Source of the DNA: Paracamarosporium sp. OC-R06-R3
Lineage: Eukaryota > Ascomycota > Dothideomycetes > Pleosporales > Didymosphaeriaceae
Direction of reading: 5' to 3'
NCBI GenBank assembly: GCA_019828545.1
Contig: JACVRA010000280.1
Coordinates: 155,332 to 219,331, forward strand
DNA length: 64,000 nt
In this document: positions 32,249-58,260 of the stretch, one piece after another
Numbering within the stretch: position 1 is the stretch's first letter
Layout of the letters: each line of letters starts with the position of its first letter
The notes under the pieces: model-generated
What the model saw: only the letters and a program-made list of their open reading frames with translations
The model's database searches: none
Told to the model about the DNA's origin: nothing
Position numbers and translations under genes: made by a program

Positions 32249-34255
32249 TCACGCTGGCGGCTCAGATAGTTTACCATTGCTGTCCGTGGCGTCTTGCTCC
32301 GCCCGTTCTTTCGCCGCATTGATAGCCTTGAGATCATGCCGTTTGTTCAGAAATGCAGTCACCAGCGTCATCCCCCCCATGGCAATGGCAAATGCAAACG
32401 CCTTCTTCAGGCCATCCATGTACACCCTCAAGACGCCAGCGAGCTCCTCGCCCGAAAACGCCCGCTCGAGGTCCGCTGCTCCCGTGAAGATGACCCTCCC
32501 CGGCGCCACGGATGGCGCGACCGCAGCGAGCCGTTTGATCATCGTGTTGCTGAGAATCGACTGTGCGGCCGAAATCGCAAGGGACCCCCCCAGCGTCTGC
32601 GCAAAAAGTATCATCCCCGTCGCCGAGGAGATATCCTCGGGCCGCATCAGCGCCTGCGCTGCAATCGTAGGAACCTGGATCCCGAGCCCGAAGCCGATGC
32701 CCGCAACCACCTGGTATCCGATCCACTTCTCGTGGGGGGTTCCGATGTCCATCGTATAGAGGAGGGCAGCGCCGGCGGTATTCAGAACACCGCTGAGCAT
32801 CATGATGGGCACATGGTGGCCGAGCGCGGAGATGACGCCGCCCGCGATGACGGTGCCGACGGTCATGCTGAGGACGGTTGGGATCGTCCGCACGCCCGAG
32901 TTCCCCGCCGACACGCCGTCGACCGTCTGGAAGTAAATGGGCATGTAGAAGACGACGACCCACGACGAGGCCGCGAGGAAGAATATGTACGCCATGCCCG
33001 CCCATATCGTGCGGTCTTTTAGCAGCCGCGATACCAGCATCGCGCGTTCCCCCAAATACACTTGCACGCCGGCGAATACCAGGAAGAGCGATATGGAGCC
33101 GCAGAGCAGGCCGATGACCATGGAGGAATTCCACGCGTAGGTTATCCCGGCTCGTTGGAGCGCGAGGAGATAGCATAGCACGGAACACATGATGCTCGCA
33201 ATGCCGAGGATGTCAAGGTTGGCCAACTTCTCGCGGATGGTGGCGTCTGTGGGCCTCGCTGCCTCTGGGGCTTGGAAGAAGAGTGCCAGGATTAGGGCGC
33301 ACGCGCCGCCGATGGGGAGGTTGATGTAGAAACCTGCCAGCAACCACGGTTAGATGTTTCTCACGAGGAAGGGCAAACGGGTAGCAAATTGTCCGACGAA
33401 GAGGATGGGACTCACACCACCGCCACGACACGTGTGAAGTGAAGAGGCCGCCGAAGAGCGGGCCCGCCACGCTGGCGACACCCCAAGAACCGCCCGCGAA
33501 CCCGGTATACGCGGCGCGCTTCTCTGGCCGCGCGATGAACGGGATCATGGTGAAAGAACCTGAGAAGATGCCGCCACCGCCCAGACCGGCGATGGCGCGG
33601 CCGACGATGAGAGTCGTATCGTTCTGTGCGACGGCTGCGGCGGGCAGAGAGAGGTCAGCATGTTGCTTAATTTGCGAGTTGCAGCGGATGAGCAGTGCTC
33701 ATGGCTGCCTTTCGTTCATACATGTGGAGAGCGGCTAAGAAAAAGACACACCGCATATCAGGCTCCCGAGCTCGAAGACCACGATGGACCCAAGGTAGGT
33801 CCACTTCAACGGAAAATACTTGTACATCTTGCCCCAGGCGGACTGGAAGCTTGCTAGCGTGAGGAGGAACGCGCTTCCGTACCAGCCTACCGACTCGATG
33901 CTTCTGAATTCGTCAGTGATCTGGGGGATCGCTGTCGATACGATCATCTGCCGGGGAGTAGCTAGTTAGTACATTTTACATGTAGACTGTGGGAATGGAG
34001 AGGGGGAGAGGGGGTTGATGGCTAGTTCGCCGCAAGTGATACGCATACCATGTCCAATGATATCAGAAAGAGGGCGAGGCACAGCGCAGTCAATATGAGA
34101 AATACTCTGATGCCTGTGGGATATTCATGGCCATTTCTCTTCTGCGCGGCCGTGATTCTCGTCTCGTTTTCATGCTCCGTAGCTCCTTCGAGACGCACTT
34201 GTCCGGATGGTGTCTTCTCGTCCGCAGCAGGCGCAAAGGAAGGTGACGACGACAT
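32249..34255 (-). CDS. MFS multidrug/toxin exporter, 14-TM DHA2 type
   Basis: Exons 34255-34049, 33947-33752, 33634-33416, 33333-32249 give 568 aa with all junctions in frame. A hydrophilic 45-residue N-terminus precedes the first span. Family motifs: [18 protein letters not shown] (DHA2 motif with LD..IVSTAIP), [43 protein letters not shown] and [14 protein letters not shown]. Fourteen spans fit fungal DHA14 exporters for polyketide and non-ribosomal products (TRI12-like). It is divergent from the enoyl reductase, and the shared 428-nt intergenic region contains a cluster palindrome 189 nt upstream of its ATG. Likely exports the cluster product across the plasma membrane. Confidence 0.9.
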
Positions 34256-34683
34256 TGTGCCAACACTGTAGAAAGCGACAATATCAAGGGACATCAGAAG
34301 GGGATGGGAACGTCCAGGCTGTTTGCGTGAAACGTAGCTTTTCTGATGGCGGGGCAAAGAGTAGCATGCTAGGACCTGCACGGGGCCTCGTACATTCGAA
34401 AAGCTACCCTTTCTAGAGAGGCGCGTCGTGGTTATTTGGTCGCGCCGAACATTCGGCCTTGCGGCGGGAGCGCGTGACCACCCGAGCGATGAGACAGGCA
34501 CACGACCGAACCATCGGAACCACCCAGGGCACCGAGTGCAGAGGCGAAGACATTCATCCGACCATGGTTGCCAGAGCCCCGGTCTAATCCACGGCGCTAA
34601 ATCAAGAAGCAATGTGTTTTGCTATATGCGTTGCCTGCACCTGAACCGACCTCTATGTACCTCCTCCGCTCCACTACCTCCTC
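34256..34683. promoter_or_regulatory. Bidirectional promoter MFS / enoyl reductase
   Basis: Holds one perfect CCGAANNTTCGG palindrome at 34445-34456. Eight nt after it is GCGGGAGCGCGT (34464-34475), which recurs with one change (GCGGGAGCACGT) at 44944-44955 in the PKS-NRPS promoter. Confidence 0.65.
34445..34456. promoter_or_regulatory. Cluster palindrome copy 1, CCGAACATTCGG
   Basis: Inverted repeat CCGAA-N2-TTCGG, equivalently everted CCG-N6-CGG half sites, as bound by dimeric Zn2Cys6 regulators. It lies 189 nt from the MFS start and 227 nt from the enoyl reductase start. Binding by the cluster regulator is inferred. Confidence 0.7.
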
Positions 34684-35927
34684 ATGTCCGCCGAGAAGCC
34701 CCTCCCACCCCCGTTTCGAGCTCCCCTCCCGACCGCCCAGAACGCTGTGCTCGTGCAAAACTCCAAACATGTCCTGTCGAAAGCAGTCCCAGTGCCGGTC
34801 TTGGGTCCCCGAAACATCATGATCAAGGTGCAGTCCGTGGCAATCAACCCCGTCGACGCAAAGATGGTTGAACTTCACGGAGCATCCATGGCCGGCTGTA
34901 TCGCTGGCTATGATTTTGCAGGGTACGTGATAGCGATCGGAGCCGAAGCCGAGCAACAGTGGCAGAGGGCTGCTCCGCTGGAGCTTGGGGATCGGGTTGC
35001 GGGCTTGGTCCTGGGCTGCAACCCGCTGGAGCCTCGCGTGGGAGCGTTTTGCGAGTTTCTGGCCGCGGACCCGCGCTTCGTCGTGAGGCTGCCTGGTGGC
35101 ATGAGTTTTGAAGACGGGGCGACCCTCGGCGTGGCGACTGCCGCCGTCGGCATGGTACTCTATCAGTCTTTGAAACTGGCCATGCCGAGAGAGGTTGCCT
35201 CCGGAGCAGCTTCCATGCTCGAGCCACCGCAAATATCCCGGCACTGGATTCTCGTCATCGGGGGAAGTACTGCCTGTGGCACGATGGCTATCCAGCTACT
35301 CAAATTGTAAGTGGATGCCAAATACTCCCACCACTATTGTCCGGGAGAGATCCTGCTCTACGTTTAGACTGCTGGACACCATGAATGACGCTGTATAGAT
35401 CCGGTTACAAGGTCATTACGACTGCATCGCCCAAGAATCATGCTCTTGTTCGATCCTACGGGGCAGACTGTCTCATCGACTATCGAAGCAACAAATGTGC
35501 TGCGGAGATAAAAGCCGCAACGAAGGACTCTCTGTGCACAATTGTGGACTGTTTCTCCAGCATCGAGAGCTTCAAGTTGAGCTACGAAGTCATGGGAGCA
35601 GCTGGCGGCGACTACACTGGTCTCAATCCGTTCCCGATCTCGATGCATACGCGCGACGATATCAACCCCCACTGGGTCTTTATACTTCCTATGTTTGGTC
35701 AGCCAATCTGCGTCAAAGGGCCATACAATAGGCCTAAAGTTAGACACGGGGATACTGAGTTCCAGTCTGCTTGGTTCCGTTCGGTGCAGCAGCTACTTGA
35801 TATGGGTCATTTGAAACCCCATCCAGTTAGTTTGGAGAAGGGAGGACTGGAGAAAATACCCGAAGGCATTGAACTGATGAGGCGAGGCAATGTCTCGGGA
35901 GTTAAGCTAGTATACTCCTTCACATGA
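34684..35927 (+). CDS. Stand-alone (trans-acting) enoyl reductase, zinc-binding-dehydrogenase-like MDR
   Basis: Exons 34684-35306 and 35399-35927 (92-nt intron) give 383 aa. MDR fold: GroES-like N-terminal part with VLGPRNIMIKVQSVAINPVDAKM and CIAGYDFAGYV, then LPGGMSFEDGATLGVATAAVGMVLYQ. The nucleotide-binding region is LVIGGSTACGTMAIQLLKLSGY, then VITTASPKNHALVRSYGADCLIDYR. The end, GNVSGVKLVYSF, is typical of trans-ERs such as LovC and ToxD. These partner with highly reducing PKS whose own ER domain is dead, as in the PKS-NRPS here. It would reduce chosen alpha-beta double bonds during chain growth, using NADPH. The promoter carries a cluster palindrome. Confidence 0.9.
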
Positions 35928-36385
35928 CGTTCGCGCAGCAAAACTCGAAGCAATTAAATCTGATGTTTCTATTCTGAATACCACCTTCCACTTTGACCAT
36001 GCGAACGCGCACTTTGTCAGTCAGTCGAAGTGCACGGGGTTGGATTTCCAAAATCAAACGTGTGCTTGCACCCTTGTTGGGGCGATCCCTGAACCTCCGA
36101 ATCTTCGGCGCTCACTACCTATATATATTATCGGGTAGCGCACGCCGAAAGTGCAAGCAGCCCACTCCAGCCCGTGTGCGACACACCCCTCCGAAAGCCA
36201 TCCCCTTGCTTTAGCCTCACACTTGGGTTCAATCAAGGCTGGCCCCAAATGCCATCTAAGAATCCCGCTAGCTCACCTGGGTAGCCTTACTATATCAAGG
36301 TCAGAGGTCACCGGCAGGATATCGAGGAATCTCTCATCAGTGCACTTACGACAAAAGACCCTTGCGCTCTCGCCACGTGAATAGA
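35928..36385 (+). promoter_or_regulatory. Promoter region of the rhodopsin-like gene
   Basis: Contains a cluster palindrome (36097-36108) and a TATA-like tatatatatta near 36120, only 12 nt after it. The palindrome is 277 nt upstream of the ATG at 36386. Confidence 0.55.
36097..36108. promoter_or_regulatory. Cluster palindrome copy 2, CCGAATCTTCGG
   Basis: Same CCGAA-N2-TTCGG arms as the copies at 34445, 42396 and 44914. It is followed by CGCTC, as in copy 4 where CGCCGCTC follows. Its position in the promoter of the rhodopsin-like gene suggests that this gene is part of the regulon. Confidence 0.7.
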
Positions 36386-37604
36386 ATGTCCCAACGAACC
36401 TTTCCACTAGGTGCGCCGCCGGATGAGTCGCGGGCAGCAGATGTTATCGCAACTCTAGCAGTGAGTTTCGGCTTAGTTGTGATCACGTTGTCGTTGAGGC
36501 TCTGGACTCGGTTCCGGCTGGTGAAGTCGCCAGGCTGGGACGACTGGACCGCTATTCTTGCAACTGTAAGAAGTGTCTGAACAATGGTCGGATCGGGAAA
36601 TTAATCACGTTGCAGTGCTGTTCGCTGATCGGCCTCATCTTCAACGCCCTCTTTTTGCGATGGGGAGGAGCCCGCCACGTCATCTACCTCACCCCATCTC
36701 AGCGTGTCAACGCACGGAAATTCTCGAACCTCGCCATGATCCCATTCACATTTTGTACGGCTGTGACAAAGGTATCAATCGCCTTCATGGTCGTACGCCT
36801 AACGGGTGAAAGGTGGATGAAGCTGTATATGTATGCGCTGATAGCATCCTTGATTTTGTTAAACGGCGCATGTATTATCGTGCTTTTTACCTACTGTACC
36901 CCCACAAGAGCTTTCTGGGATGCAGTTCCGCACGCGAAGTGTCGTCCTACGAAAGTACTTCAAATAGCTTCGAACGTTCAAGGAGGTACGTCTTCCCACC
37001 GGGTGATCCGGCTTGGAACTAGGAGTGGGGACATGGCTTATTTTCCCAGCGTGGGCAGTAATCACCGACCTTATATGCACGTCCACTCCACTTATCATGG
37101 TGTGGAAGCTGCGCATGGATGTACACAAGAAGATTGCGGTAACAGCTTTGATCGGCTTTGGTCTTGTGTAAGTACAATATTGCCTTGATTTGGCTCGGTG
37201 AATGGTGCTAAATGAATCCAGAACGACTGCCTGCTCGATAGGAAGAGTGGTAGAGTACAACAAGGCTGAGTTTCAAGACGCAACATGTACGTCACGGATG
37301 CAAATCCTTCAGTGAGCGCGAAGTACGGCTGACCTATGCAGGGAGCGGCGTTGAGTCCATTATCTGGACTACACTCGAGGAGAACATTGGACTTATAGCT
37401 GCGAATTTGCCGCCGTTGGGCAAGTTCTCAAGAGCGGTATACGAGAAAGTGTTGAATTCGCCAAGCATGCGTTACTTGCTTTCGCGTTATGGGAAATCGA
37501 CTGAGAAAAACAGTGAGCAGCGAGTGCCGACAATCGGAGAACGACCAAAGCGGTCAAGAGATTCGGATTTCGAACTCATGCATACAGAGAATTCAGCTGA
37601 GTGA
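36386..37604 (+). CDS. Fungal rhodopsin-domain integral membrane protein
   Basis: Exons 36386-36565, 36616-36985, 37050-37167, 37222-37286, 37342-37604 give 331 aa. Hydrophobic spans alternate with conserved blocks of the fungal rhodopsin-like family (PTH11-related group): RLWTRFRLVKSPGWDDWTA near residue 40, FCTAVTKVSIAFMVVRL, ALIASLILLNGACIIVLFTYCTP, AWAVITDLICTSTPLIMVWKLRM, and the end block SIIWTTLEENIGLIAANLPPL. The cytoplasmic tail is hydrophilic. Proteins of this family are receptor-like, mostly orphan, and often sit in metabolite clusters without a proven enzymatic role. A cluster palindrome in its promoter links it to the pathway. No CFEM domain seen. Confidence 0.85.
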
Positions 37605-38955
37605 CATTAAAATCTAAGAGCTTTGACAGAGAAAGGCTGGCTGTGCTGTTGATATGATCGTAGGATGCCCCTGTCGCGATGTCGTTAGTTTTGTGGCTAA
37701 ATTATACGTTTGTTGAATCGAAACATTCGGCAGTGATAAGCGATGGACAGCTGGTAGAACATAGCATATCAGAGAATTCAGAGTTGTATGCACTGCCGTG
37801 AGAGGCTTCGAGAGGGTGTTTTTCGTTAGTGATATACCCCACCTTGTGCAAACATTCTGCGGCATCACACCCAGTCCTGTCCTAGACCCTTACCGCTCCG
37901 TCTGTTGCTACCCACCATACTGATCTCTGTGGTGCACGTGATTGACCCAGAGGTATTCTTTCCTCTAAGGCTCCATTGCACCTCGAGTATTGAGTGTTAA
38001 CTGTCATTCTCTATGTCATGCTTCGATCTCGCGAGTTTTCCGATAGTATTGTCATTCAACACATAGCCGTTGCCAACCTCCTTCATAACATCACTCCTTC
38101 CGATGTCTTTGCCCATTGACTTCCTGCTTCAAGATAGTCGGGTTGAGTTTGGCGATTGCGGGTGCTGTCTTTGGGGCTCTGTGAAGGGGAGGGAAGCTAG
38201 ATAAACAATGGTGCCTTGGCACCTGCCACCACCCTATTAGGTATACCTACCTCAACAACTAGTAGTGTCAGATTATGTACTATTAAAGTGGACGAAGTTA
38301 TAGTAACTCGAAGTGTACTATTGCAGAGAGTACAACCTAGAGCTTACAGTGAGTCGTAGTTTACTATTACAGTAATCTATAGTAATCGTATCATTGCTTA
38401 AAGTGCAAAATAAAGACTAGGACGCTAAGGAAGGCTTAACACATCAAGGACAAAAGAGTAACCTTAGGCTTAGCTATAACACAAGATCAATCAACCCCAA
38501 AAATCATCACAGTTTCACAGTGAATCATCAAGATGCATCGTGAATCTAACAAGTACTAAGCTTCTATACGCTGATATAAGTATCTGCTTAACTTTGCTTC
38601 AACCACAACTATAATATAACACCAAGTTACACAAACAGAGAAATTCTACTACTAGCCTAGATTATCTAGTGCATATGCCTAAACAAAACATACCTCAGCC
38701 AACCGTAGTACAACCACAGACACGAAACCCATACAAAACAAGTAATCCCCCTCATCTCACGCAGCCACTAGTATCATACCTAACTAACCAGAAGCAAGCA
38801 AAGCACGCGTTCCCACACACCAAACTAAACCAAACCAAAGCATCTACACTGCACACCAACCCCAACCCCAACACAACAAAACACAACCCGAGCCACGGAG
38901 AAATCCCAAGCCGCACCGCGCCATACATCCCACGCACTCATCCTATCCCACCGCA
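37605..38955. other. Intergenic, AT-rich then strand-asymmetric low-complexity sequence
   Basis: About 1.35 kb without a supported gene. 38220-38640 is AT-rich with repeated short words (agtgtactatt, tagtttactatt, cagtaatctatagtaatc). From about 38640 to 38960 the plus strand is strongly depleted of G and rich in A/C: for example 38821-38880 has 2 G in 60. This would be the 3' side of the minus-strand regulator gene. Confidence 0.5.
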
Positions 38956-40242
38956 TCACAGCAAATCGCTCTCGCGGATCCTGCCGCGTACCTCGCGAAC
39001 ACGCCCCCACACCTCATCCCTCAGTCGCCCAAGCAGCCTAACCTGCCCCCTAACCACACCTTCCATATCTGCATCTCTATCTTCATCTCCCTCTCCCTTT
39101 CCACCATCCACGCCCTGGTCCAAAAGCCCGCCCTCCTCCGCGCGGCCCCCGCCCAAAAGCGCCATCGCCCCGCCAAGTTTCTCCGCCAGATGCGCGACGG
39201 CGCTCACGATCTGGACCCAGGCGATGGCGGAGGTAGCGCCGCGGTGGGCGGCGCACTCAGCGGCGTCAGCGACGTCCTGGGCGAGGAGGCGGAGGAGGCG
39301 GTCGTAGAAGCGGAGGAGGCGGATGTAGCAGGAGAGGATGACGAGGGCGACGCTCGGGTCGTTTAGAGGCGGGGGGCGTTGCTCGGCGGCGTGTATGTCG
39401 GTGTCTGGGTGCTGCTGGGGCGGTTGTTCTGCGTGCGAGGTGTATGTCTTTGTGAGGGTTATGAGCATCGTCGTGTGTTGGTAGGCTTCTGGGACGGAGA
39501 GGTCCGCTTTGTCGACGGCGGTGGTGCCGAGGGCGCGCCAGAGGCGGCATAGCTGGTCTTCGAGGGGGGCTTCGGGGGCGCCGGTGGGGGGTGCAGAGGT
39601 GGGAGATGTGGAGGTTAAGCGTCGGGGGTCTTTGTACGTGTCGACGGTTGCCCGGCTTGGGGTGGAGGAGGGAGAAGGGGAGACGGGCCGGTCGCTTGCG
39701 TCGTGCATGTTGGTCGTGTATTGCGGCGATGCACCTGGTAAGGCGCCTAGTAGCGATTCAGAAGCTAGGTTTTCGAGATGCAGGATTTCCATGTCTGGCC
39801 ATGCAAAGTTGAATGGGGCGTTGAGCACGTCGTGGATGGGGACTGTTGCTGCTTGGGCGAGAGCTTCTTGCGGATCAAACGACTGTTCGCTTGCTGTGGA
39901 GATGGGATAGGGATACGAACTCGGCAGCTCCTCCATGCTCGATCGTAGCCTCTTTCTGGATATACGCGGGGAAGCAAGAGTTGTGAAAGACCGATGTCGC
40001 TGCTGGTGGAGGCGTGGGTTTGTAGGACAAGAAGCGGGCGATAGATCCGTCCCTTTTTCGTTGATTATGAGGTTCTGTGCGGGTTGTTGTTCGATTTGAT
40101 CTTGTCCGCGGTCTTGGTAGGTGGGATACGTGCATTTTGCACCGGCCCGCGTACACCTCTTGCAGCTATCGCCGGCACCTCCATGGGTCATCTCGCACTT
40201 GAGCTTCTGTCCGTGGCAGCGGTCGCAGACTGTTTGCTTCAT
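38956..40242 (-). CDS. Zn2Cys6 transcription factor, AflR-like, probable cluster regulator
   Basis: Single exon, 428 aa from the ATG at 40242. The frame is open further upstream but has no earlier ATG. MKQTVCDRCHGQKLKCEMTH begins the binuclear zinc cluster with C6, C9, C16, C27, C30 and C37 (CX2CX6CX10CX2CX6C). A Gln/Ser/Pro-rich linker follows. The C-terminal half resembles the AflR-type regulatory domain: ALVILSCYIRLLRFYDRLLRLLAQD, then a Gly/Glu/Asp-rich helical end. Such factors bind paired CGG half sites as dimers. The only repeated palindrome in the window, CCGAANNTTCGG in four cluster promoters, is the natural candidate target. No copy lies in its own 5' flank, so simple autoactivation is not indicated. 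Confidence 0.87.
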   Translation of the reverse strand: MKQTVCDRCHGQKLKCEMTHGGAGDSCKRCTRAGAKCTYPTYQDRGQDQIEQQPAQNLIINEKGTDLSPASCPTNPRLHQQRHRSFTTLASPRISRKRLRSSMEELPSSYPYPISTASEQSFDPQEALAQAATVPIHDVLNAPFNFAWPDMEILHLENLASESLLGALPGASPQYTTNMHDASDRPVSPSPSSTPSRATVDTYKDPRRLTSTSPTSAPPTGAPEAPLEDQLCRLWRALGTTAVDKADLSVPEAYQHTTMLITLTKTYTSHAEQPPQQHPDTDIHAAEQRPPPLNDPSVALVILSCYIRLLRFYDRLLRLLAQDVADAAECAAHRGATSAIAWVQIVSAVAHLAEKLGGAMALLGGGRAEEGGLLDQGVDGGKGEGDEDRDADMEGVVRGQVRLLGRLRDEVWGRVREVRGRIRESDLL

Positions 40243-40686
40243 GTTGTGCGATGATGGATGCGGAGGTGTAGATGGATGCGGCACCCAATCATTGGGCAAT
40301 GTTTACCAAGGTTGTGTATCAGATCATCAAGTGAAAGCACGTTGTGTGGGGCGCGGGGGAGCTCAGCTATGATATGGCTACTTATGCGTCCGTGGACACG
40401 ACGAGGGCTATGCAAATGCCTGGGGCAGTGGGCAACGATGAATTGGCAAAGTACAAATCTGGCAGGCTGATGAGGATATAAGTGGAAAATGGCATTCATA
40501 GGATAGGCCAATCTGGCAGTCGCATCTAGCCGCCCCACGCATGCACGTAAGATGGAAGAGGACGTGCGGAAACATGCACACAAGGAGATGAATGTGTAGG
40601 TTACATGGGGAATTCGTATCCCCGATGCGGGCGCCGCAGTGGTGCAAATGGGGGCCGTTGGGTGATGACAGTATCGCAACGCCGGC
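40243..40686. other. Intergenic, 5' flank of the regulator
   Basis: Between the regulator (-) and the amidohydrolase end. No coding region and no CCGAANNTTCGG copy found. Confidence 0.4.
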
Positions 40687-42222
40687 CTAGTCGGCAAGAG
40701 GGCCCTCGTCGAGCCCAAATGCGTCGATGATGGCCTTCTGGCCCTGAGGTCCTCCAGGTTGAATACCAGCGTCTGCCATGTTGCGGGCTATCTCTTTCTG
40801 GCTCTGCTCCAGCGCAGCAAGCACGCGGGGCCACGGGAGCTTGGCAGCAGAGACTTGTGCCCCGAGGCTGGTACCGGCGAGCAGCTGGGCAACGGGCTCC
40901 TGCGTCGTGCAGTCGACGTCGCACAGCTTGCCGTGTCGTTTGCGGAACGTGCCGTCGACAATAACGCAGTCGACGTCGCGGGTGGTGGCATGGCAGACGA
41001 CGGCGGCCAAGGGATCGTGCTGGGCGGCGCACGCCATGCTGGGGCTCCGGCAGTCCCACGTGACCAGGTCGGCCTTGAAGCCGACGCGCAGCTTGCCAAT
41101 GTCGTTGGGCATGCCGACGGCACGGGCAGCATGGCACGTCGCGAGCTGAAAGGCGTGCTGGACCGTGGGCGCCATGGCGCGGGGGAACCGGTTGCTGGCG
41201 AGCAAGTCGTGCGTCCGCTGCGTGCGCGCCAGGGCCAGGGCCAGGCGCATCTGCTCGAGCATGCTGCCGCCCGCGACGCTGTGGGAGTCGCAGCCCAGGC
41301 TGGCGCGCCCGCCGCCCGCAAAGGGCCATGGCGTCCCCAGGCCGAGGCGTGCCTCGCACGAGGGGGTGCACGACACAAAGGCGCCGTGGTCGGCCAGCAG
41401 CGCCTCGTCGTCTGGCGTCAGGCCCGTTGCGTGCGAAAGCAGCACGTCCGGGCCCAGCACGCCCGCGGCGGCCAGGGCGGCGGGCACGCTCCGGGCGGGG
41501 GCCAGCAGCGGGTTGGCGAAGCAGTGCGCCGTGATGCAGCGCACCCCCGCGGCGCGCACCTCGTCCAGCAGCGTGCGCGTGTCGGCGGGCGCCAGAGAGG
41601 CATAGCCGTCGAAACCAAAGCCGAGGGCGACGCGCGGGTGCCCGGCCAGCAGCCTGCCCAGCACGACGAGCTGCGGCTGGTGCCACGGCTGCAGCACGCC
41701 GGGGGCCAGGCCGAGGCGCGGGGCCCACCTCTCGACGAGCGGCGTGGGCGTGTAGCAGAAGACGGAGCGGATGCCGGATGCGAGCGTTGCAGCGAGCCCA
41801 TGGGCCGAATTCTCAGCGCGGTAGTTCATGTGGGCCTGGTCCACGACCGTCGTGGTGCCCGCGTCGAGTGCTTCCAGCGCGCCGCCCAGCTGGCCCCAGA
41901 AGACGTCTGATGGCGTGAACAACGACGCCGACAGGTTGCCAGACGCCATGTAGTCGAGCACCGTGTCGTCGCCATGCCGGCCCCTGAGCTGCGTCTGCCA
42001 GAGGTGGTGGTGCGTGTCGATGAAGCCCGGCGATACAATCCTGCCCGCCATGTCCACCTCGACCGCGTCCACGGCCCCGTGTGCACCCAAGTCGATGTGT
42101 CTCCCGATGCACGCAATCCGGTCTGCAACCACGAGCACATCCTCGCGCACAGGTACCACCGTGTCGCTTTCGCCCTCGGGCACCAGCAATATCCCCCCTC
42201 GGAGCACCATCGAAGAAGCCAT
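40687..42222 (-). CDS. Metal-dependent amidohydrolase (SsnA/AtzA/cytosine-deaminase-like)
   Basis: Single exon. Start taken at 42222 (MASSMVLRGG, 511 aa); an ATG at 42300 would add 26 residues without family resemblance. Composite beta part, then SPGFIDTHHHLWQTQ (HxH metal ligands) near residue 70, ITAHCFANPLL and LLSHATGL (His ligands), and LGCDSHSVAG (catalytic Asp). Near the C-terminus, GKLRVGFKADLVTWD is the standard amidohydrolase closing motif. Most likely a Zn-dependent deaminase or C-N hydrolase. It is very GC-rich (41461-41520 has only 9 A/T in 60), unlike its neighbours. It shares a divergent promoter with a cluster palindrome with the small membrane protein. Its role in the pathway is unknown. 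Confidence 0.85.
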   Translation of the reverse strand: MASSMVLRGGILLVPEGESDTVVPVREDVLVVADRIACIGRHIDLGAHGAVDAVEVDMAGRIVSPGFIDTHHHLWQTQLRGRHGDDTVLDYMASGNLSASLFTPSDVFWGQLGGALEALDAGTTTVVDQAHMNYRAENSAHGLAATLASGIRSVFCYTPTPLVERWAPRLGLAPGVLQPWHQPQLVVLGRLLAGHPRVALGFGFDGYASLAPADTRTLLDEVRAAGVRCITAHCFANPLLAPARSVPAALAAAGVLGPDVLLSHATGLTPDDEALLADHGAFVSCTPSCEARLGLGTPWPFAGGGRASLGCDSHSVAGGSMLEQMRLALALARTQRTHDLLASNRFPRAMAPTVQHAFQLATCHAARAVGMPNDIGKLRVGFKADLVTWDCRSPSMACAAQHDPLAAVVCHATTRDVDCVIVDGTFRKRHGKLCDVDCTTQEPVAQLLAGTSLGAQVSAAKLPWPRVLAALEQSQKEIARNMADAGIQPGGPQGQKAIIDAFGLDEGPLAD

Positions 42223-42327
42223 CTGTGCAACGGTATTGGTTATTGAGTATCGGTGGGACTGGACGGTATTGGCCTGGGTCCAGCGCATGCCGGCGTCCAT
42301 GGCCTGATATCTTCTTCCTGTGTGTTA

Positions 42328-42394
42328 CCCGCTGCCTGCTGCCCGCTGCCTGCTGCCTGCTGCCTGCTGTGCCGACTGCCTGCCTGCCTGCTGT
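42328..42394. repeat. Imperfect CTGCC/CTGCTG microsatellite
   Basis: A run of ctgcctgctgcc-like units, interrupted by tgccga, directly next to the palindrome copy at 42396. Length variation here would alter spacing between the binding site and the amidohydrolase start. Confidence 0.7.
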
Positions 42395-42395
42395 G

Positions 42396-42407
42396 CCGAA
42401 CCTTCGG
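42396..42407. promoter_or_regulatory. Cluster palindrome copy 3, CCGAACCTTCGG
   Basis: Same arms as the other three copies. 173 nt upstream of the amidohydrolase start (42222) and 117 nt upstream of the small membrane protein start (42525). Confidence 0.7.
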
Positions 42408-42524
42408 ATCCGACAATCGCCCTTTGTGCCTCCCGCACCCCAAAGCCCCTCCTCGTCGTCCCCAAATTCCTCACTCGCCCAGTCGCCAACACAACCTCCT
42501 CACATCATCGCACCTTGCCAAACT

Positions 42525-43022
42525 ATGTCCATGTCCGTCTTCACCATGGCTCTGCGCCTGATCCGCCTCTTTCCCGTGCTCTCGTCCACCGTCACCCTCA
42601 TGTTCGCCATCGACGAGCACATCTTCCTTGGCACATGGACCCGTCCTTCGATCCGCGACCGCGCAAACGTCCACCTCCCTCCTTGGTTCCAGCTCTGGGG
42701 CCGCCGAGGTCGCTGGGTCATACTTCTTGGCTATCCCGCAAACTACCTGTCAGCTCTGCTCAACCTGGTCCTGGCACGCCATCAGCTGTACGCTGCTGGC
42801 GCTACCAAGTGGTACCTGCTCGGCTTCCTCTTCAGCTTTGCACACATCGCCATCTACGCCAAACCTGCGCTGAAGCTCCTTGCCGACATCAAAAACGACA
42901 TCCCCCGCGGCAACCCCGTCCATTCCATGGCCGTGTGGCTGAAGCTGAATCTGCTGCGGGCGCTGACGACTGATTTTCCGGCGTGGTTCTGCTTCATCGT
43001 TGCGGCGCTGAAGGTCCTGTGA
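42525..43022 (+). CDS. Small integral membrane protein of the cluster, unknown
   Basis: Single exon, 165 aa, start at the ATG in 42525. Hydrophobic segments near residues 7-28, 57-77, 86-106 and 140-164 suggest four spans. A basic/aromatic loop (GTWTRPSIRDRANVHLPPWF) follows the first. Polar or charged residues in or near membrane (DEHIF near 28, TTDFPAWF near 148) recall membrane-bound cluster enzymes such as DUF1772-type proteins, but I cannot place it in a family. It shares a palindrome-bearing promoter with the amidohydrolase, which supports membership in the pathway. Confidence 0.7.
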   Translation: MSMSVFTMALRLIRLFPVLSSTVTLMFAIDEHIFLGTWTRPSIRDRANVHLPPWFQLWGRRGRWVILLGYPANYLSALLNLVLARHQLYAAGATKWYLLGFLFSFAHIAIYAKPALKLLADIKNDIPRGNPVHSMAVWLKLNLLRALTTDFPAWFCFIVAALKVL

Positions 43023-43344
43023 GCGCGAACAAGGAGACGGGAGGTGCGATTAGACTATCAAGGCGACTATACGAGGGTCTGGCGCCATCGCTCCCTTCGA
43101 GCTTGGCCCCACCGGAAGGATCGCTGCATCGTCATCCCCCATCTTTTCGCTTCGGCTAAGCGCGCGGACCAGTCCTCTAATAAGCTTCACCGCCCTATCT
43201 ACGATCGGACCTCTTTGTCATCATTTTTGCGAGGGAATATTCAGATACGCTACACACCCCAACCTGCCAGGAGGGTGTGTAATTTCGCTTAGCATGCGTT
43301 AATGGACATGATGAATTGTTTCAACTACCTATCCCTCCCCCCCC
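43023..43344. other. Intergenic between convergent genes
   Basis: 3' flank of the small membrane protein. No coding sequence supported. It leads into the minisatellite. Confidence 0.4.
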
Positions 43345-43510
43345 CTTCCCCCCGTCGTGATGATACACCCTTCCCCGTCGTGATGTTATACCCTTCCCCG
43401 TCGTGATGTTATACCCTTCCCCGTCGTGATGTTATACCCTTCCCCATCGTGATGTTATACCCTTCCCCGTCGTAATGTTATACCCTTCCCCGTCGTGATG
43501 TAACACCCTT
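43345..43510. repeat. 23-bp minisatellite, seven copies, abutting the hydrolase stop codon
   Basis: Units start at 43345 (slightly longer, variant), 43369, 43392, 43415, 43438, 43461 and 43484. The core is CCTTCCCCGTCGTGATG followed by TTATAC. Copies 5 and 6 each have one change (CATCG, CGTAATG) and the last ends TAACAC. The array runs up to the minus-strand stop codon of the alpha/beta-hydrolase (43509-43511), so it occupies the start of its 3' UTR. Confidence 0.95.
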
Positions 43511-44783
43511 AGGCCTCTACGCAAGCGTCGAGATGCTCGTTCAACCAGGAAAACATCCTTTGATGCGCGATGCCCATGGCGCCCATCTTGGCCTGCAGCC
43601 CTCCCTGCCCGACGCCCTTGGCGATCCACAGCGTCCTCTTCTCGTCCCCGAGATGCTTCAGATTCGCGTAGATCAAGTCGGTACTAAGCTCGGGGCTAAA
43701 GTACAGCGTATCTGCGGCACCCGTCACCATCACCGGGCAGCTGACCTTGCTCAGCAATTGCCCACCATCTGGCAGGCGCAGCGAGTATCTTTTGAACTGT
43801 CGAAGCACATCCGCCGGCGTCGCCACGCCGTAGACCCACATGGAATGGTAGAACTCCCAGGCCGTCTGGAAATTGAGCCGTGAGGCAAGCCCGACCACGC
43901 CGTTGACCACCCAATCGCCCAAATAACCCTTCTCCCAGCCCACCGTCAGCCACTTGGGCAGGCGTGATTCCGTGAAGAGCCACACGTCGTAGAAGCCGTC
44001 GACGCTGATGCACGCCTTCACACGTGCATCTGCGGCTCCACGCAGCACAAAGTAGCCTCCCATCGAGTTCCCCGTCAACGCGAGTCGCTCCACGTCAAGC
44101 TCAAGCTCAGGCCGCTCCCTGCTCAGGTCCTCGACAAAGTCCACCACCGCCGACGTGACGACCTCCCAGTCTGGACGCATGTGCTTCCCGAGCTTGCGCA
44201 GCACCAGGCCCTGGCCCGGCCCCTCAAACGTCAACACTGCGTACCCTCGTGTCCTGGCACCCGCCGCGACGAAAAAGTACAGTTCCTCCTGCGACGAGTC
44301 GAAGCCTGCCGTGTGGATGATGAGCGGTATTTTGCCCGGTTTCCGGCTTTCCTGGGTCGGCATGTACAGATAGGCAGGGAGGTGGTAATCCTCGAAGGGG
44401 ATTTCCAGCAAGTGGACGGCGCTGTCCAGCAAGAGGATGCCTTGGCGGAACACGTCCGCTGCCTTTTGTGACACGGAGAGAAGCCTAGGGTCTGAGTTGC
44501 AGTCGAGGCGCAGCAGAGATTCGCTCGCCCGGAGATAGTTCCAGCTTCGGAGGAGGCACCATCTCTCGGCTTCCTTGTCGTGCGTGAGTGCGGCTTCGTT
44601 GGCGAGTAAGAGCGTCTTTTCCGCTGCTGCTTGCCAGGAGCGATGCCAGCTTTCAGGGTCGCCGTCCTTGATGCTTGCGGCTGCCTCCCAGCACTCGCCG
44701 ATGTCCGCGGCCTGGAACGGGGCTGCGTTCAAAACGCGGAAGAATTCAAAGTTGAAGAAGGCGGAGCGGAATACGTTGGCCAT
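43509..44783 (-). CDS. Alpha/beta-hydrolase of the Ayg1 / pseudooxynicotine-hydrolase type
   Basis: Single exon, 424 aa. A helical N-terminal domain (FFNFEFFRVLNAAPFQAADIGECW) precedes the hydrolase fold, as in fungal Ayg1-like enzymes. Oxyanion region: PLIIHTAGFDSSQEELYF. Nucleophile: LALTGNSMGGYFVLRGAADAR, with Ser240 in GNSMGG. Candidate acid in VTGAADTLYF, and His in MGIAHQRMFSW near the end. Hydrolases of this kind recur beside PKS-NRPS genes in cytochalasan and ACE1-type clusters. There they act after reductive release of the aminoaldehyde, in the step leading to the pyrrolinone. Divergent from the PKS-NRPS with one shared palindrome, 130 nt from this start. Confidence 0.88.
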   Translation of the reverse strand: MANVFRSAFFNFEFFRVLNAAPFQAADIGECWEAAASIKDGDPESWHRSWQAAAEKTLLLANEAALTHDKEAERWCLLRSWNYLRASESLLRLDCNSDPRLLSVSQKAADVFRQGILLLDSAVHLLEIPFEDYHLPAYLYMPTQESRKPGKIPLIIHTAGFDSSQEELYFFVAAGARTRGYAVLTFEGPGQGLVLRKLGKHMRPDWEVVTSAVVDFVEDLSRERPELELDVERLALTGNSMGGYFVLRGAADARVKACISVDGFYDVWLFTESRLPKWLTVGWEKGYLGDWVVNGVVGLASRLNFQTAWEFYHSMWVYGVATPADVLRQFKRYSLRLPDGGQLLSKVSCPVMVTGAADTLYFSPELSTDLIYANLKHLGDEKRTLWIAKGVGQGGLQAKMGAMGIAHQRMFSWLNEHLDACVEA

Positions 44784-45133
44784 GTTGCAGTGGATTGAGC
44801 TCGGTTGCCAATGGCTTTCTGTAATTTAGGATGGTTATCAAAGGCAGCTTTCTGGTGTTTCTGCACTGGGTTGTACCATTCTCGTATGCTGCTGTCTTAG
44901 TCGCTTTGACGCCCCGAATATTCGGCGCCGCTCTCCGCCGAAAGCGGGAGCACGTATGAAAAAGGCAATTTTGCTTTCTATTGCATAATTGGCTGGATCT
45001 GGTAACTGAATGCTATTAGGTTATTGGGTTAGGAGTTATTCCGCCTTCGCGGATCCATGAATACACGTTTAGATACATTTTATGCGTCTATAACGGGAGA
45101 TCCCACAAGATCGTTGCTATACCACAGTTCAAT
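44784..45133. promoter_or_regulatory. Bidirectional promoter hydrolase / PKS-NRPS
   Basis: 350 nt containing a cluster palindrome (44914-44925), a half-site region (TCCGCCGAAAGC) just after it, and GCGGGAGCACGT at 44944-44955, shared with the MFS/ER promoter. Confidence 0.65.
44914..44925. promoter_or_regulatory. Cluster palindrome copy 4, CCGAATATTCGG
   Basis: A perfect 12-bp palindrome, the most symmetric of the four copies. 130 nt from the hydrolase start and 208 nt from the PKS-NRPS start, so one site could drive both. Confidence 0.75.
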
Positions 45134-48100
45134 ATGCAGTCAAGCATCTCCGAGCCTACGGCCGTTATTGGTACCGCATGTCGATTCCCCGGCGCATCGT
45201 CGCCAGGTCGACTTTGGGAGCTTCTCAAGAGCCCGAAAGATCTCTTGAAAGATATTCCGCCTGCTCGATTCAACACAGCAGGCTTTTACCGGAGCAATGG
45301 AGGCCACCATGGAGCAACCAACGTCACGAAATCTTACCTACTCGACGAAGACCACCGAACCTTTGATGCATCGTTTTTCAACATCAGTCCCCGCGAGGCC
45401 GAGGCGATGGACCCGCAGCAGCGATTCTTGCTGGAAGTTATCCACGAAGCTACCGAGTCGGCAGGGTATCCACTAGGAGCTTTGGCAGGCTCAGACACGT
45501 CGGTTTTTGTAGGAGTAATGAGTGGTGACTATCACGATCTACAACTTCGCAATGTCAACTCGCTCCCACAACATTTGGCTACCGGCACCGCCCGAAGTAT
45601 CCTTTCGAACAGAATCTCCTATTTCTTCGACTGGAAGGGGCCCTCGATGACCATCGACACGGCTTGTTCGTCGAGCCTCGTGGCCGTGCACCAGGCCATC
45701 GGCAGTCTGCAGCGGGGTTCTCAGGTCGCCATCGTGGCCGGAGCTAACTTGATACTCGGGCCCGAGGCCTATATTTTCGAATCGAAGCTTCGGATGTTGT
45801 CGCCAACGGGCCGAAGCAGCATGTGGGACGCGGGTGCGGATGGCTATGCCCGAGGCGAAGGCTTCGCAGCCATTATGCTCAAACCCTTGAGCAAAGCTCT
45901 CCAGGATGGCGACGCTATCGAGTGCGTGATCCGGGCCTCGGGCGTCAATCAAGACGGGTACGGCTCTACTGGTCTCACAGCGCCCACAGCAGCAGCTCAG
46001 ATTGCCCTGATACAGAAGACGTATGCAGATGCAGGTCTCGATCCTCGGAGCCCAAGCGACCGCTGCCAATACTTTGAGGCTCATGGCACCGGGACGCCTA
46101 CAGGGGACCCCGTTGAAGCCGAGGCCATATCGCGGGCCTTCTTTGCTTCGCAGGAACGCGTGCCCGAGGACCAGCGCATGTACGTGGGGTCCATCAAAAC
46201 CGTAGTCGGCCACCTCGAAGGCACGGCGGGACTCGCGGGCTTGATAAAAGCCTCGTTGATGGTGCAACACGGCATCGTCACGCCGAACCTGCTTTTCAAG
46301 ACGCTCAACCCGTCCATTTCGCCTTTCTATACTAACGTCAGAGTCCCCACGGTGGCTGCTAAATGGCCCGAGCCAGCAGAGGATGCTCCCCGCCGCGTGA
46401 GCGTTAATAGCTTTGGATTCGGCGGCACAAATGCGCATGTTATTGTGGAGAGTTTCCGGGCGCCACTTGAGCAGATGCGTTCCGAGACGCCACAAGACAC
46501 GGTGGAATCGAGGAGTCGTGCCCCACCGGTCCTACCGCTTGTTATTTCAGCAAAATCGGAGACTTCGCTGCGGAAACAAGTCGCGTCGATGCGTGCCTAC
46601 GTCGAGGAGCACCCGCAGACTAGCTTCACGGACCTCGCGTGGACGTCCATTTTCCATCGTACCCTCTTTGCATACCGCGTCTCGTTCGCAGCCATGAATA
46701 CGAAGGAGCTTCTGGGAAGTTTGTCTCGCAAGGCGGCCGAAATGGAGGCTTCGGAGAGCTCCTTGCAGCCCGTCACCAGCGCAGGCGATATACAGCCTAG
46801 GATTCTCGGCATATTTACTGGGCAAGGTGCCCAGTGGCCACAGATGGGCTTATACTTGTATCTGCATTGTTCATCCTTCGCTGCAAAGATTCGTGAGCTG
46901 GACAAAGCGCTTGCCAGCCTTCCTGATGCTCCGGCGTGGACATTGGAGGGTGTGCTGCAACAAGATGAGAAGACTAGTCAGATTCATTCTGCATCCATCT
47001 CCCAGCCCATCTGTACAGCGGTGCAGATAGCACTTGTTGATCTCTGCCGTAGTATTGGCCTCGTCTTCAGTACCGTTATAGGCCATTCGTCTGGCGAAAT
47101 CGCCGCAGCTTATGCCGCAGATATCATCACTGCGAAAGAGGCACTCTCCATCGCCTATTACCGTGGACTGCATAGCCGGCTCGCTGGCGGGGCAGAAGGT
47201 GAAAACGGAGGAATGATGGCCACGGGACTTTCGTCCAGTCAAGCCAAAGTGTTTTGCGCTCAAGATCAGTGGGAAGGACGGCTAGTTGTTGCAGCGGACA
47301 ACGGGCCAGGGAGCACAACCTTATCTGGAGATGAGGACGCCATAACCGAAGCTGCAGAGGCTCTCAAGAGGGAAGGCATTTTCGTCAGAATCCTGCGCGT
47401 CAAAAAGGCCTACCATTCACATCACATGCATCCATGCGCTAGGCCGTACTTAGACTCACTTCGGGTTTGCCAGATTCATCCGAGATCTCCCACATGTACG
47501 TGGATCTCGACGGTTCATGTCCTCGACAAATTTCGAGAAGAGGTCATACCGACGATGAAGGGTCCCTATTGGATCGAAAACATGGAGAAACCTGTGCTGT
47601 TCACGCAAGGCTTGCAGCATGCGCTGCGCACAGGGGAATCGTTCGATTTTGCCTTGGAGATTGGACCCCATCCCGCACTATCCGCACCATCCAAGCAAAC
47701 AATGAAAGACAAACTGGGACATTCGATCCCTTACCATGGAACGCTGAGTCGCAATGACGATGATGTCTTGGCCATCTCTTCGATGCTAGGCTTCATCATG
47801 GCGCACTTCTCATGGCTCCCTACCAATCTGAGCAGATACCCGGACCTGTTCCAGGGCCGCCCTCGACCCCGGTACCTCAAAGACTTTCCAACATACTCGT
47901 GGGATCACGATACAGTGTTCTGGAAGGAGTCGCGCACTTCTGAACGATTTCGATCTCGCAATGCCGGCATCCATGATTTATTGGGTTCGAGGATGCCCGA
48001 TGACAACGAAGACGCCATACGTTGGTCCAACTTTCTGCGTGCCCATGAGCTCCCCTGGTCCTCGGGACACCGTTTCCAGAACCAAATACTTTTCCCTGCG

Positions 48101-51100
48101 GCCGGGTACATATTGATGGCTGTTGAAGCGGCGTGTGCTTTAGTGCCAGGGGCACGGGTTGACGCCGTCACGCTGCACGACGTGCAAATTCTGAAAGCCA
48201 TCACGCTGGACGAGGCCCCGACGGGGGTCGAAACCATGTTTGCGCTCAACAAGGAAGACAGTCGGGAAACTGTGCCGGGCGTTGTCCGCGCGCAATTTGC
48301 TCTCTATGCTGGGACTCAGCAGGGTTCCATCGACATGGTCAAGCATTTCTCGGGTAGCGTGACGGTGCATCTCGCTACGTCGGTACGCGCGTCGTTTCCG
48401 CATCGCCAGAGAACGCCTGGGTACCTCGTTGATGTGGAGGTGAGCCAGTTTTATGAGGCCATGTCGAGAGTTGGGCTCGACTACACTGGGAGTTTCAGAG
48501 GCATAACGTCCATGTGTCGAAAAAGCCGTAGGTCATGCACCGAGGTCTCGCATGTGGATCACGTTGAAGGCACAAAGAACATGACGATGCATCCCGGATT
48601 TGTCGACTCGTGCCTACAGGGTCTCTTGGCAGCGTTTGCAGCTCCCGACGATGGGACATTCTGGACGGCGTACCTGCCCACCTCCGTTCGCAAAGCACAT
48701 TTCAATTTGACCTCTCCCCAGCCTACGAAGCAGAGCACTTTCTTCGTCGATAGTTACATAACCAGGGCCTCTTCGCTGGATCTGGTGGGGGATGTTGAGG
48801 TTTTCGATTCTCAGGCGTGCATGCGGTTCCAGCTCGAAGGCGTCACCTGCACTGCAATCGAACACCCGTCACCCATGAATGACCGCCAGCTTTTTGCAAA
48901 GGTCGCGTGGAAATCCGATTGCTCGGATGCAACGGCGGTTCAGGCGTCTTCTCCAAAAGAAGTTGCAGACATTCGACAACTGGTTGCAATCTGTGAGCGA
49001 TACTCTTACATGTATCTCAAACGCCTGCGGTCGCAGATTGGGAAGGCCGAGGAAGTATCACTCGAATGGCACTTGAGACAGCTGCTCGCTTTCACTGAGT
49101 TCACCCTGCCACGCCTCGAACAAGGCCGTTGTCCAACGTACGATCCCAAGTGGGTTGACGACACCGAGGATATCTTGGATGCACTCGCTAGCCGGTTTGC
49201 AGACAAGGTGGATATACAAATCGTTCGTGCGGTCGGCTCGAACCTTGTCGGCATCTTTCGCGGAGAGAAACTGCCGTTGGAGATCTTGCAGCAGAACAAC
49301 ATGCTGTCCAGACAATACATCGAGGGCATGGGTTTCTCCCAATGCAACGCACACATTGGGAGAATAGCAAGTCAGATAATCCATCGCTACCCGAATATGA
49401 GAATACTGGAGATTGGCGCAGGCACAGGTGCCACGACAAGAGTCATGGCCGAGACCATGGGCGATCGCTACGACGAATACTTCTACACTGATGTGTCGGC
49501 TGGATTCTTTGAGCGCGCCAAGCCCATACTCAATTCGGACAAGGTCACGTACAAGATCCTTAATATCGAAGAGGACCCAATTTTGCAAGGTTTCGAGCCG
49601 CATTCGTTTGATCTGATCATCGCATCGAATGTGCTACACGCAACACGCGTTTTGAAAACTACACTGGAGAACGTTCGGAAGCTTCTCAGACCAGGAGGCT
49701 TCCTCTTACTGATGGAGATTACAGGCGAATGGCTAAGGAATCGGCTCCCTATCTCGTGTCTTCCCGGTTGGTGGCTCGGAATCGATGATGGCCGACCCCA
49801 CGGTGCTACGATAACAGAAGGGGAGTGGAATGATCTGTTACTGCGCACAGGCTTCTCTGGAAACGACCGAGTGGAGCGTGACGCGGTCGAAGGCATGCCG
49901 CACTCAATGTCTACGATTCTATCTCAAGGCATCAACGACGTCGTAAAGATTGTTCGGCAGCCACTTGCGTTTCTAGACTCGATTCCCTCTTATGGGAGGC
50001 TTGTTATCTTGGGAGGAAGCTCGTCTAAAACGCTCAATATCGCGCGAGAAATTAAACAACGTCTACGGCCCTGGCAGCCGCATGTTGTAATTAAACGATC
50101 CCCGGAGCATCTGAAGGACATGGAAAGTGAGTGTCTAACGAGCTATTACCATTTATACATGTTTTACTGACGCAAGGTTGCAGGCGATTGCGCGTTCTCG
50201 GTTCTGTCACTGGCCGACTTTGATGATCCGCTCTTCTACCAACCCACATCGCAACGGCTCGCCGGACTAAAAGGATTGCTACGGACTGCACGACATGTAT
50301 TGTGGGCGCTCGAGAACAGTCACGCAGATAATCCCGCCGCCAACATGTCACTGGGGATTGCTAGGACGCTTCGAACCGAGCTCCCTGCGTTGTCGCTTCA
50401 AGTCGTGCACTTTGAGTCCGAAACGCCGGATTCCTTCTGTTCGAACACAGCTCGATATCTCGCCGAGTCCATGTTGAGACTTGTTCTGTTTGACAGCGAA
50501 GTTCTCGGCGATGGCCTTCTCTATTCTAGGGAGCCAGAGATTATGGTCAAGAAGGGTGCATTGTGGATTCCGAGGGTTGTTCCCGCCGTGGAGCTCAACG
50601 ACCGCTTGAACGCTGCAAGGCGGGTTGTTGTAAGGTCAGTTGATCTCGAGCAGGATCGCGTCATACTCGACGAGCAAACCGTATCGCACGGGTCGCCATT
50701 CGCTAGCCGGGGTCGTATTAATGACCTATGTGTCCCCGATGGACATGTCATGGTGCGTGTAACATTATGTTCACTCCGTCCTGTTCGAGTCGAGGCAGAC
50801 ACTTTCTTGTATCCATGTGTTGCACAGACGGCCGACGGCGAAGAAGTCTTTGCATTGTCTCAGAGCAATGCGTCCGTTGCCGTTGTGCCAGCGCAATGGA
50901 TCGTCCCACGCTCCTCAGACCTCGTTGATTTGTCTCTTTCCTTGCACACATTCGTTTGCGGTCTGATATCCCACACAATTCTGAACGCCTGCTCGAAGCT
51001 ATCGATCTCGCTGGTTTACGAGCCAGACGAGACATTGCAAGCTGTTTTAAGATATTTTGCTGGCCATATGGGCAAAACCATTCGGTTTGTCAAGTCTGAA

Positions 51101-57100: not shown

Positions 57101-57307
57101 TTGTGCGGTGATAGAAAAACTCCCATCAACCAACTTGCGAGTATTCTGCAGAAGGGAGAGGTTGGTGTCGAGGAGGTGGACATACAGCACTGGCTGGCAC
57201 TAGCACAGGCTGCCGGCTTGCCTAGTGTAATGTGTGCAGCCATTGAGGAGTATTCTAGTAGCTCTTGGACTTTAACTGAAATTAAACGCGGAGAAAAGAG
57301 TTGGTAA
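45134..57307 (+). CDS. Hybrid highly reducing PKS-NRPS (KS-AT-DH-MT-KR-ACP-C-A-T-R)
   Basis: Exons 45134-50126 and 50184-57307 (57-nt intron), 4038 aa. Domains by residue: KS 8-435 (DTACSSS about 175, HGTGTPTGD, GHLEGTAG), AT 555-870 (FTGQGAQW, GHSSGEIAA about 650), DH 944-1240 (His in PWSSGHRFQ about 977, Asp in HPGFVDSCLQ), C-methyltransferase about 1370-1560 (LEIGAGTGATT about 1425), structural region without an NADPH-binding ER, KR 2140-2330 (LVGLTGEIGRS, GNYGQGNYNAAN), ACP about 2468 (LGIDSLI), C 2570-3000 (YHHIIMDGVSW about 2713), A 3040-3560 (YTSGTTGRSKG, NAYGPAETTI, GRIDGDQQIKLRG, NGKVDR), T about 3617 (GGSSLLLVEL), R 3700-4038 (LTGAFGYLGS, GYIASKYASE). All other core active-site residues read intact. 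It would make a methylated reduced chain, condense it with one amino acid and release it through R. The R domain keeps YxxxK, which favours reductive aldehyde release over Dieckmann cyclisation. The missing ER is probably supplied by the gene at 34684. Confidence 0.95.
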
Positions 57308-58260
57308 GTTACTTATTGTAGAAATATATGACGTATATTACGGGCGAGTGACCAGTACGGGTAAGTGCATCAGATTGTGTACTATTTAAACTTAGCTAAA
57401 AGATATTACTATTATTATTATTATTTTTATTATCCTAAATTATAGTTATCAAGTCGTCCATTAACATCTATAGTAAATTGAAAAATTTCGTAGTACTATC
57501 TTTTAGTATTGTGACGGTCTGGTATGCTGACAGGTCACATGACCGTGCTTGGGGGCGCGCCTACCTCACGTTCAGGCACGCCTACCTGACGGCTGGGCGC
57601 AACCACCTCAGGTGGAAGGTTGTTCCGGGCCAGGCAGCGCGCAAAAGCGCAACAGCCCTATGTACCTGGAGTCTCCTCATCTTAGTGTAGCTGAAATAGA
57701 GCCAACCTACCTCATCTACTTCTTTCGATGTAGGAGACCGAGCTCGTCCTCACACCCTCAAATTAACATGGCATCAGCGCGACTAGAAAGTTTGATTGTG
57801 GGACGGTACCACGATTTGGTCGTGCGAAGCGTATTAGAGATGGCATTATCGGGGAGTACAAATAACCATCATTGTACACTTTCAATTGAAGAATAAGATA
57901 GGGATGCGAAGTAAAGTGCGGGAAAGGATCGATACGGTAGGGCCCGCATGCTCAATCAACGGCCCATACACGCACGTTGGCACCCATTGACAGCCCTAGT
58001 ATGTGTTGAGCGGCGCGGTAGCCTTGTTGTCAGCTGATTGAACCCACACAAGAAGCCGTGCCGCATTTGTGGTACGAGTAAAGCGGCCCGTGCGCAGGAT
58101 AGCTTTCCGCCCTCCATCTGCTGCATCTACTGCCTGTCGCGTTTCCCAGACTCGTACCTTTTGATACGAAAAGTCACACCAACTAGATCGACAGTGGGCT
58201 CGCCTTTTTCCTGGCTGGGTTGGCTTGCCCTTTACAAGTGAGTACGCAGACTGTCAGCTA
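57308..58260. other. Intergenic, AT-rich stretch then GC-rich repeat-like words
   Basis: 57370-57470 is AT-rich with TTA/ATT microsatellite character (attactattattattattatttttatt). 57535-57620 is GC-rich with repeated words (gcgcctacctcacg / cacgcctacctgacg) and GGTCACATGACC-like symmetry, perhaps a mobile-element relic. A 42-codon frame from 57769 has no recognisable feature. No cluster palindrome precedes the P450. Confidence 0.45.

Follow-up and report, generated by a model that had tools for sequence, protein, structure and literature searches.

A palindrome shared by four promoters of a Paracamarosporium PKS-NRPS cluster and its probable reading by the cluster's own Zn2Cys6 regulator

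Four sites in a polyketide-peptide gene cluster

The stretch considered here, hereafter the window, comprises 64,000 nucleotides from Paracamarosporium sp. OC-R06-R3 (contig JACVRA010000280.1, positions 155,332 to 219,331) and holds a secondary-metabolite cluster centered on a hybrid polyketide synthase and non-ribosomal peptide synthetase (PKS-NRPS). Our subject is the palindrome CCGAANNTTCGG, four copies of which lie in promoters of this cluster, and the Zn2Cys6 protein encoded at 38956-40242, which is its candidate reader. A preliminary description of the window had listed these four copies and placed them in 5' intergenic regions, three of them between divergent genes. Searching the window returned exactly these four matches and no more in 64 kb, and their placement is borne out by the gene starts, which were read from open frames.

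Site 1 (CCGAACATTCGG, 34445-34456, an exact match) lies between two divergent genes. To its left is a major facilitator superfamily (MFS) transporter gene on the minus strand (32249-34255), with several exons, a Pfam MFS_1 match on 32249-33343 and a start read from frames. To its right is a trans-enoyl-reductase-like gene on the plus strand (34684-35927), whose two exons give an open spliced frame, with ADH_N on exon 1 and ADH_zinc_N, below the curated Pfam cut-off, on exon 2. The same promoter carries a near-copy with one mismatch (CCGAACCATCGG, 34506-34517), a possible second site. Site 2 (CCGAATCTTCGG, 36097-36108, exact) is the one outside a divergent gap; it lies 3' of the trans-enoyl reductase gene and 5' of a plus-strand gene for a membrane protein with a fungal rhodopsin domain (36386-37605, several exons, ends approximate; Fung_rhodopsin on 36610-37185).

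The remaining two sites lie to the right of the regulator gene. Site 3 (CCGAACCTTCGG, 42396-42407, exact) separates a minus-strand amidohydrolase gene (40687-42300, with its start at 42300 or about 42222; Amidohydro_1 at an expectation value, E, of 4e-24) from a plus-strand gene for a small membrane protein (42525-43022). This protein matches no Pfam or NCBIfam family, but 36 relatives at E up to 1e-3, with identities up to 83% (Dothideomycetes, Botrytis, Lachnellula, and metagenomes), mark it by sequence as a strongly conserved uncharacterised protein. Site 4 (CCGAATATTCGG, 44914-44925, exact) separates a minus-strand alpha/beta hydrolase gene (43509-44783, Abhydrolase_6 at E 3e-7) from the PKS-NRPS gene on the plus strand (45134-57307). 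A tandem array of about seven copies of a 23-base unit is found at the 3' end of the hydrolase gene (43350-43510).

The PKS-NRPS gene has at least two exons and encodes ketoacyl synthase, acyl transferase, dehydratase, methyltransferase, ketoreductase, carrier, condensation, and adenylation domains, followed by a reductase-type C-terminus (NAD_binding_4). Among the best 120 of 317 matches to its second frame, many of them bacterial non-ribosomal peptide synthetases, identity to fungal PKS-NRPS proteins is about 28-35%, and Aspergillus fumigatus NRPS14 aligns at 35% over 80%, matches that do not point to a particular product. Downstream lies a P450 gene (58432-60064, p450 Pfam match).

The distances from site to predicted start are 189 bp for the MFS gene, 227 bp for the trans-enoyl reductase, 277 bp for the rhodopsin-like protein, 117 bp for the small membrane protein, 95 bp for the amidohydrolase (173 bp from the later start), 130 bp for the hydrolase, and 208 bp for the PKS-NRPS. 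All four sites have the form CCG-N6-CGG, that is, an everted pair of outward-facing CGG triplets. A repeat-derived origin of the sites was considered and set aside, as long common flanks were not seen.

Rarity of the palindrome and its clumping in the genome

In 100 dinucleotide shuffles of the window, CCGAANNTTCGG occurred 0.09 times on average and never more than once. The looser form CCG-N6-CGG is also in excess, with 22 matches vs. 14.4 expected and no shuffle of 100 reaching 22, although the four sites and the near-copy at 34506 account for five of these matches. Turned the other way round, as CGG-N6-CCG, the pair is not in excess (10 vs. 15.1 expected). Allowing up to two mismatches to the palindrome gives 34 matches in the window vs. 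28.9 expected, a number reached in 21 of 100 shuffles, and therefore the exact form alone stands out. There are two one-mismatch copies, one being the near-copy in the promoter of site 1 and the other lying at 45782 inside the PKS coding frame.

The preliminary description had put the chance expectation at 0.06 copies, a figure that ignores the choice of the motif after it was seen. If all palindromes with five-base arms and spacers of 0-12 are compared, no other family in the window reaches the four copies of CCGAA with spacer 2, the next ones having three. A maximum family of four arose in 3 of 300 order-2 Markov windows and never exceeded four; taken alone, therefore, the window count is an event of about 1%. 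It could thus be argued that the motif is a coincidence noticed after the fact, and this would also agree with the genome as a whole, where the motif is not overrepresented (48 copies, reversed control 40). However, the simulations disregard position, and the sites fall in four intergenic stretches that together account for 1460 bases out of the 12,886 from 32249 to 45134. Only two 5-gap-5 words (gaps 0-12) are common to all four stretches, namely the palindrome and its one-base-shifted form CCGAA-N3-TCGGC. When four segments of the window were picked at random, a word of this kind was common to all of them in 2 of 300 draws.

The genome-wide arrangement speaks more strongly. The assembly comprises 43,091,187 bases (43.09 Mb) in 337 contigs, the end of the window being the end of its contig (C120), and pattern counts across it may be lower bounds. 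Four of the 48 copies sit within 10.5 kb, all of them in the cluster. Were the 48 spread uniformly, 1.1e-5 four-copy clumps of 10.5 kb would be expected, a value not corrected for the choice of motif. Among the other 44 copies no pair lies within 10.5 kb, the nearest pair being 17 kb apart (contig C335), and no same-pattern pair within that distance was found for three control patterns: spacer 3 (45 copies, reversed 40), spacer 1 (27 copies, reversed 52), and CGGAANNTTCCG (24 copies, reversed 48). This clump is far stronger evidence than the window count. The preliminary description had named frequency across unrelated promoters of the genome as grounds for abandoning the idea; the genome-wide count did not refute it, the 44 non-cluster copies being at the level of the control patterns.

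The excess of CCGAANNTTCGG is confined to this cluster. The surroundings of the other 44 copies were read, in flanks of up to 4 kb to either side for 24 of them and of 0.6 kb (1.2 kb stretches) for 20; coding-like frames (crude codon score above 4, open frame of at least 140 codons) cover 12 of the 44 and none of the four cluster sites. We make no claim of a wider regulon for these copies, given their control-level count and the 12 in coding-like frames. Overall, the palindrome is almost certainly a real, non-random, cluster-specific promoter element, and coincidence is scarcely credible as its explanation.

The candidate regulator and other possible readers

The protein encoded on the minus strand at 38956-40242 matches Zn_clus above the Pfam cut-off (E 4e-7), and its gene lies between the four sites, inside the cluster. 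A search of the six frames of the window with a Zn2Cys6 pattern, which would miss an intron-split motif, matched the zinc-cluster motif of this protein (40132-40227) and nothing else. It is on account of this uniqueness and of its location between the sites that we propose this protein as the reader. Among 7996 candidates scored at an E cut-off of 1e-3, two relatives passed, P0001 (34% over 100%) and P0002 (64% over 10%). The three aligned members share a MKQxVCDRCHGQKL start and a conserved region near the C-terminus around LxCYxRL and HLAEKL, with an SD(L/V)L end. With an E limit of 0.01, Zn_clus is the sole Pfam match of the regulator, which sets it apart from AflR; membership in the AflR family was considered and rejected, since the C-terminal AflR domain (PF08493) was not matched. 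In a sequence search of the PDB the matches listed were PPR1, at E 0.26, and a splicing factor, none of them better than this value, and there was no homology to Leu3 among them.

P0001 and P0126, the latter related to the small membrane protein (79% over 88%), are both found on NCBI contigs of 22,764 bases. These are probably one and the same contig, in which case regulator and target would stay together in another fungus. A scan of viral contigs for DNA of orthologous clusters gave no relative.

The palindrome is probably the operator of this regulator. A homodimer of the 38956-40242 protein would contact both CGG triplets of the everted CCG-N6-CGG pair as well as the inner AA/TT, and would activate the MFS, trans-enoyl reductase, rhodopsin-like, hydrolase, and PKS-NRPS genes, largely through shared divergent promoters. 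It may also activate the amidohydrolase gene, the small membrane protein gene, or both. Two marks of a pathway-specific Zn2Cys6 regulon are seen here: a Zn2Cys6 protein within the cluster and a shared CGG-based promoter dyad that is rare elsewhere.

The core of the palindrome, GAANNTTC, allows another reading that the preliminary description had not named. This core has two heat-shock units head to head; the palindrome could be a two-unit heat-shock element (nGAAnnTTCn) recognized by heat-shock factor or a relative, which would place the cluster under stress control. Skn7 is a relative of heat-shock factor and a possible reader of such an element. A paper on heat-shock factor-DNA structures describes two-site elements in head-to-head order and includes the string of site 4, but it gives at least three alternating nGAAn units as typical of heat-shock elements (PMC8379338). 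Each site has two units, and a three-unit element was not found in the window. Furthermore, CC before and GG after the core are present in all four promoter copies of GAANNTTC and jointly in none of the 16 other window copies, a count that is partly circular because the motif was picked with its flanks, whereas heat-shock factor does not need CC/GG flanks. The heat-shock reading fits less well than a Zn2Cys6 operator, and we hold it to be very improbable.

Several results weigh against the local regulator as reader. Its own promoter (40243-40686) has no site even at two mismatches, and the same is true of the promoter (57308-58431) of the P450 gene, a possible member of the cluster. The zinc-cluster region of the regulator is matched at three other places in the genome (contigs C76, C75, and C22). 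The four promoters show no enrichment of additional TCGG/CCGA half-sites (13 vs. 9.3, with 124 of 1000 shuffles giving at least as many), and the half-site arrays that we had considered are not supported there. To these may be added the simulated windows with a family of four described above, and a decayed copy of one gene pair, described below, where the 5 kb read held two palindrome copies at two mismatches and none better.

As the genome holds further zinc-cluster proteins, the site reader could be encoded elsewhere: the palindrome would still be a genuine cluster-specific operator, with the local Zn2Cys6 protein using another site or partner. The absence of a site from the local regulator's promoter would agree with this. 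On the other hand, the sites surround the local regulator, and copies outside the cluster are at control level, which is what a pathway-specific regulator, and not a wide one, would lead one to expect. We therefore consider a reader encoded elsewhere unlikely, and the cluster's own Zn2Cys6 protein remains the probable one.

It should also be noted that one site in a divergent promoter may act on only one of its two genes. Together with the absence of sites from the regulator and P450 promoters, this makes the seven genes flanking the sites an upper estimate of the regulon. The preliminary description had gone further and taken the motif as a sequence-based definition of the regulon. Its cluster-specific promoter element holds, but the definition was overstated, as the regulator and P450 promoters lack the site and one gene of a divergent pair may not respond.

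Two other loci in the same genome resemble parts of the cluster. On contig C46 (211001-216000), at about 1490-2940 of that piece, decayed pieces of an amidohydrolase gene (minus strand) and of a small membrane protein gene (plus strand) lie in the same divergent order, with 70-75% DNA identity to the pair in the window, and the minus strand carries one more piece of the small membrane protein gene. This divergent pair can thus exist outside the cluster, an observation that speaks neither for nor against a response of both genes to the site. On contig C75 (28001-37500), a zinc-cluster protein with the same CDRCHGQKL opening as the regulator is accompanied by a hydrolase related to that of the cluster and by a frame that by eye resembles a transporter; these 9.5 kb hold two imperfect palindrome copies, with one and two mismatches, and no array, and the locus may possibly represent another, related cluster. 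Elsewhere in the window, outside the cluster, 16438-20365 holds two neighbouring frames of one strand, one with a CHAT domain (16438-17799) and the other of 841 aa and with no Pfam family (17840-20365).

Significance and comparison with known systems

If the regulator binds the palindrome, the working gene set of the cluster would be largely readable from its DNA. The amidohydrolase and the unnamed small membrane protein, which homology alone would not assign, would join the PKS-NRPS pathway, and a new operator sequence would become available for assigning regulons in related fungi. One literature search with the motif and site strings did not find CCG-AANNTT-CGG in print as a fungal regulator site; besides the heat-shock factor paper it listed work on begomovirus diagnostics and on olfactory neurons of the fly. 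A more far-reaching and rather doubtful suggestion is that the regulator belongs to a little-studied group of Zn2Cys6 proteins that reads the everted CCG-AANNTT-CGG operator and is co-inherited with the small membrane protein as a portable regulator-plus-enzyme module. The arrangement is otherwise ordinary for fungal secondary-metabolite clusters, and its value would lie in a useful map of genes that are switched on together, as a clean and testable, if ordinary, case.

Shared promoter motifs are used to define clusters, as in CASSIS. Sites of the Leu3 type reportedly consist of everted CGG half-sites to which a Zn2Cys6 dimer binds, and the CGG triplets face outward here too; the Leu3 spacing is 4, whereas here it is 6. 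Zn2Cys6 dimers typically recognize two CGG triplets, which may be arranged as inverted, direct, or everted repeats (PMC5559640). AflR binds TCG-N5-CGR sites (TCGSWNNSCGR) in aflatoxin and sterigmatocystin clusters, in which some promoters lack the motif (PMC7344883). The present cluster resembles this system in its in-cluster Zn2Cys6 regulator, its symmetric outward-facing CG(A/G) half-sites, and in that not every gene has a site, but differs in its spacer of 6 and CCG/CGG half-sites, compared with the spacer of 5 and the more degenerate TCG/CGR half-sites of AflR (TCG-N5-CGA) (PMC7344883). TopC of the pyridoxatin/trichodin cluster is likewise an in-cluster Zn2Cys6 regulator of a PKS-NRPS cluster and binds five cluster promoters in electrophoretic mobility shift assays, although its motif, a MEME prediction, is not a CGG pair (PMC10609478). 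TerR of the terrein cluster (TCGGHHWYHCGGH) is another in-cluster Zn2Cys6 regulator with a CGG-based motif, in this case a direct repeat with spacer 5 unlike the palindrome described here, and its motif was found by sequence first and its binding afterwards (PMC4360782).

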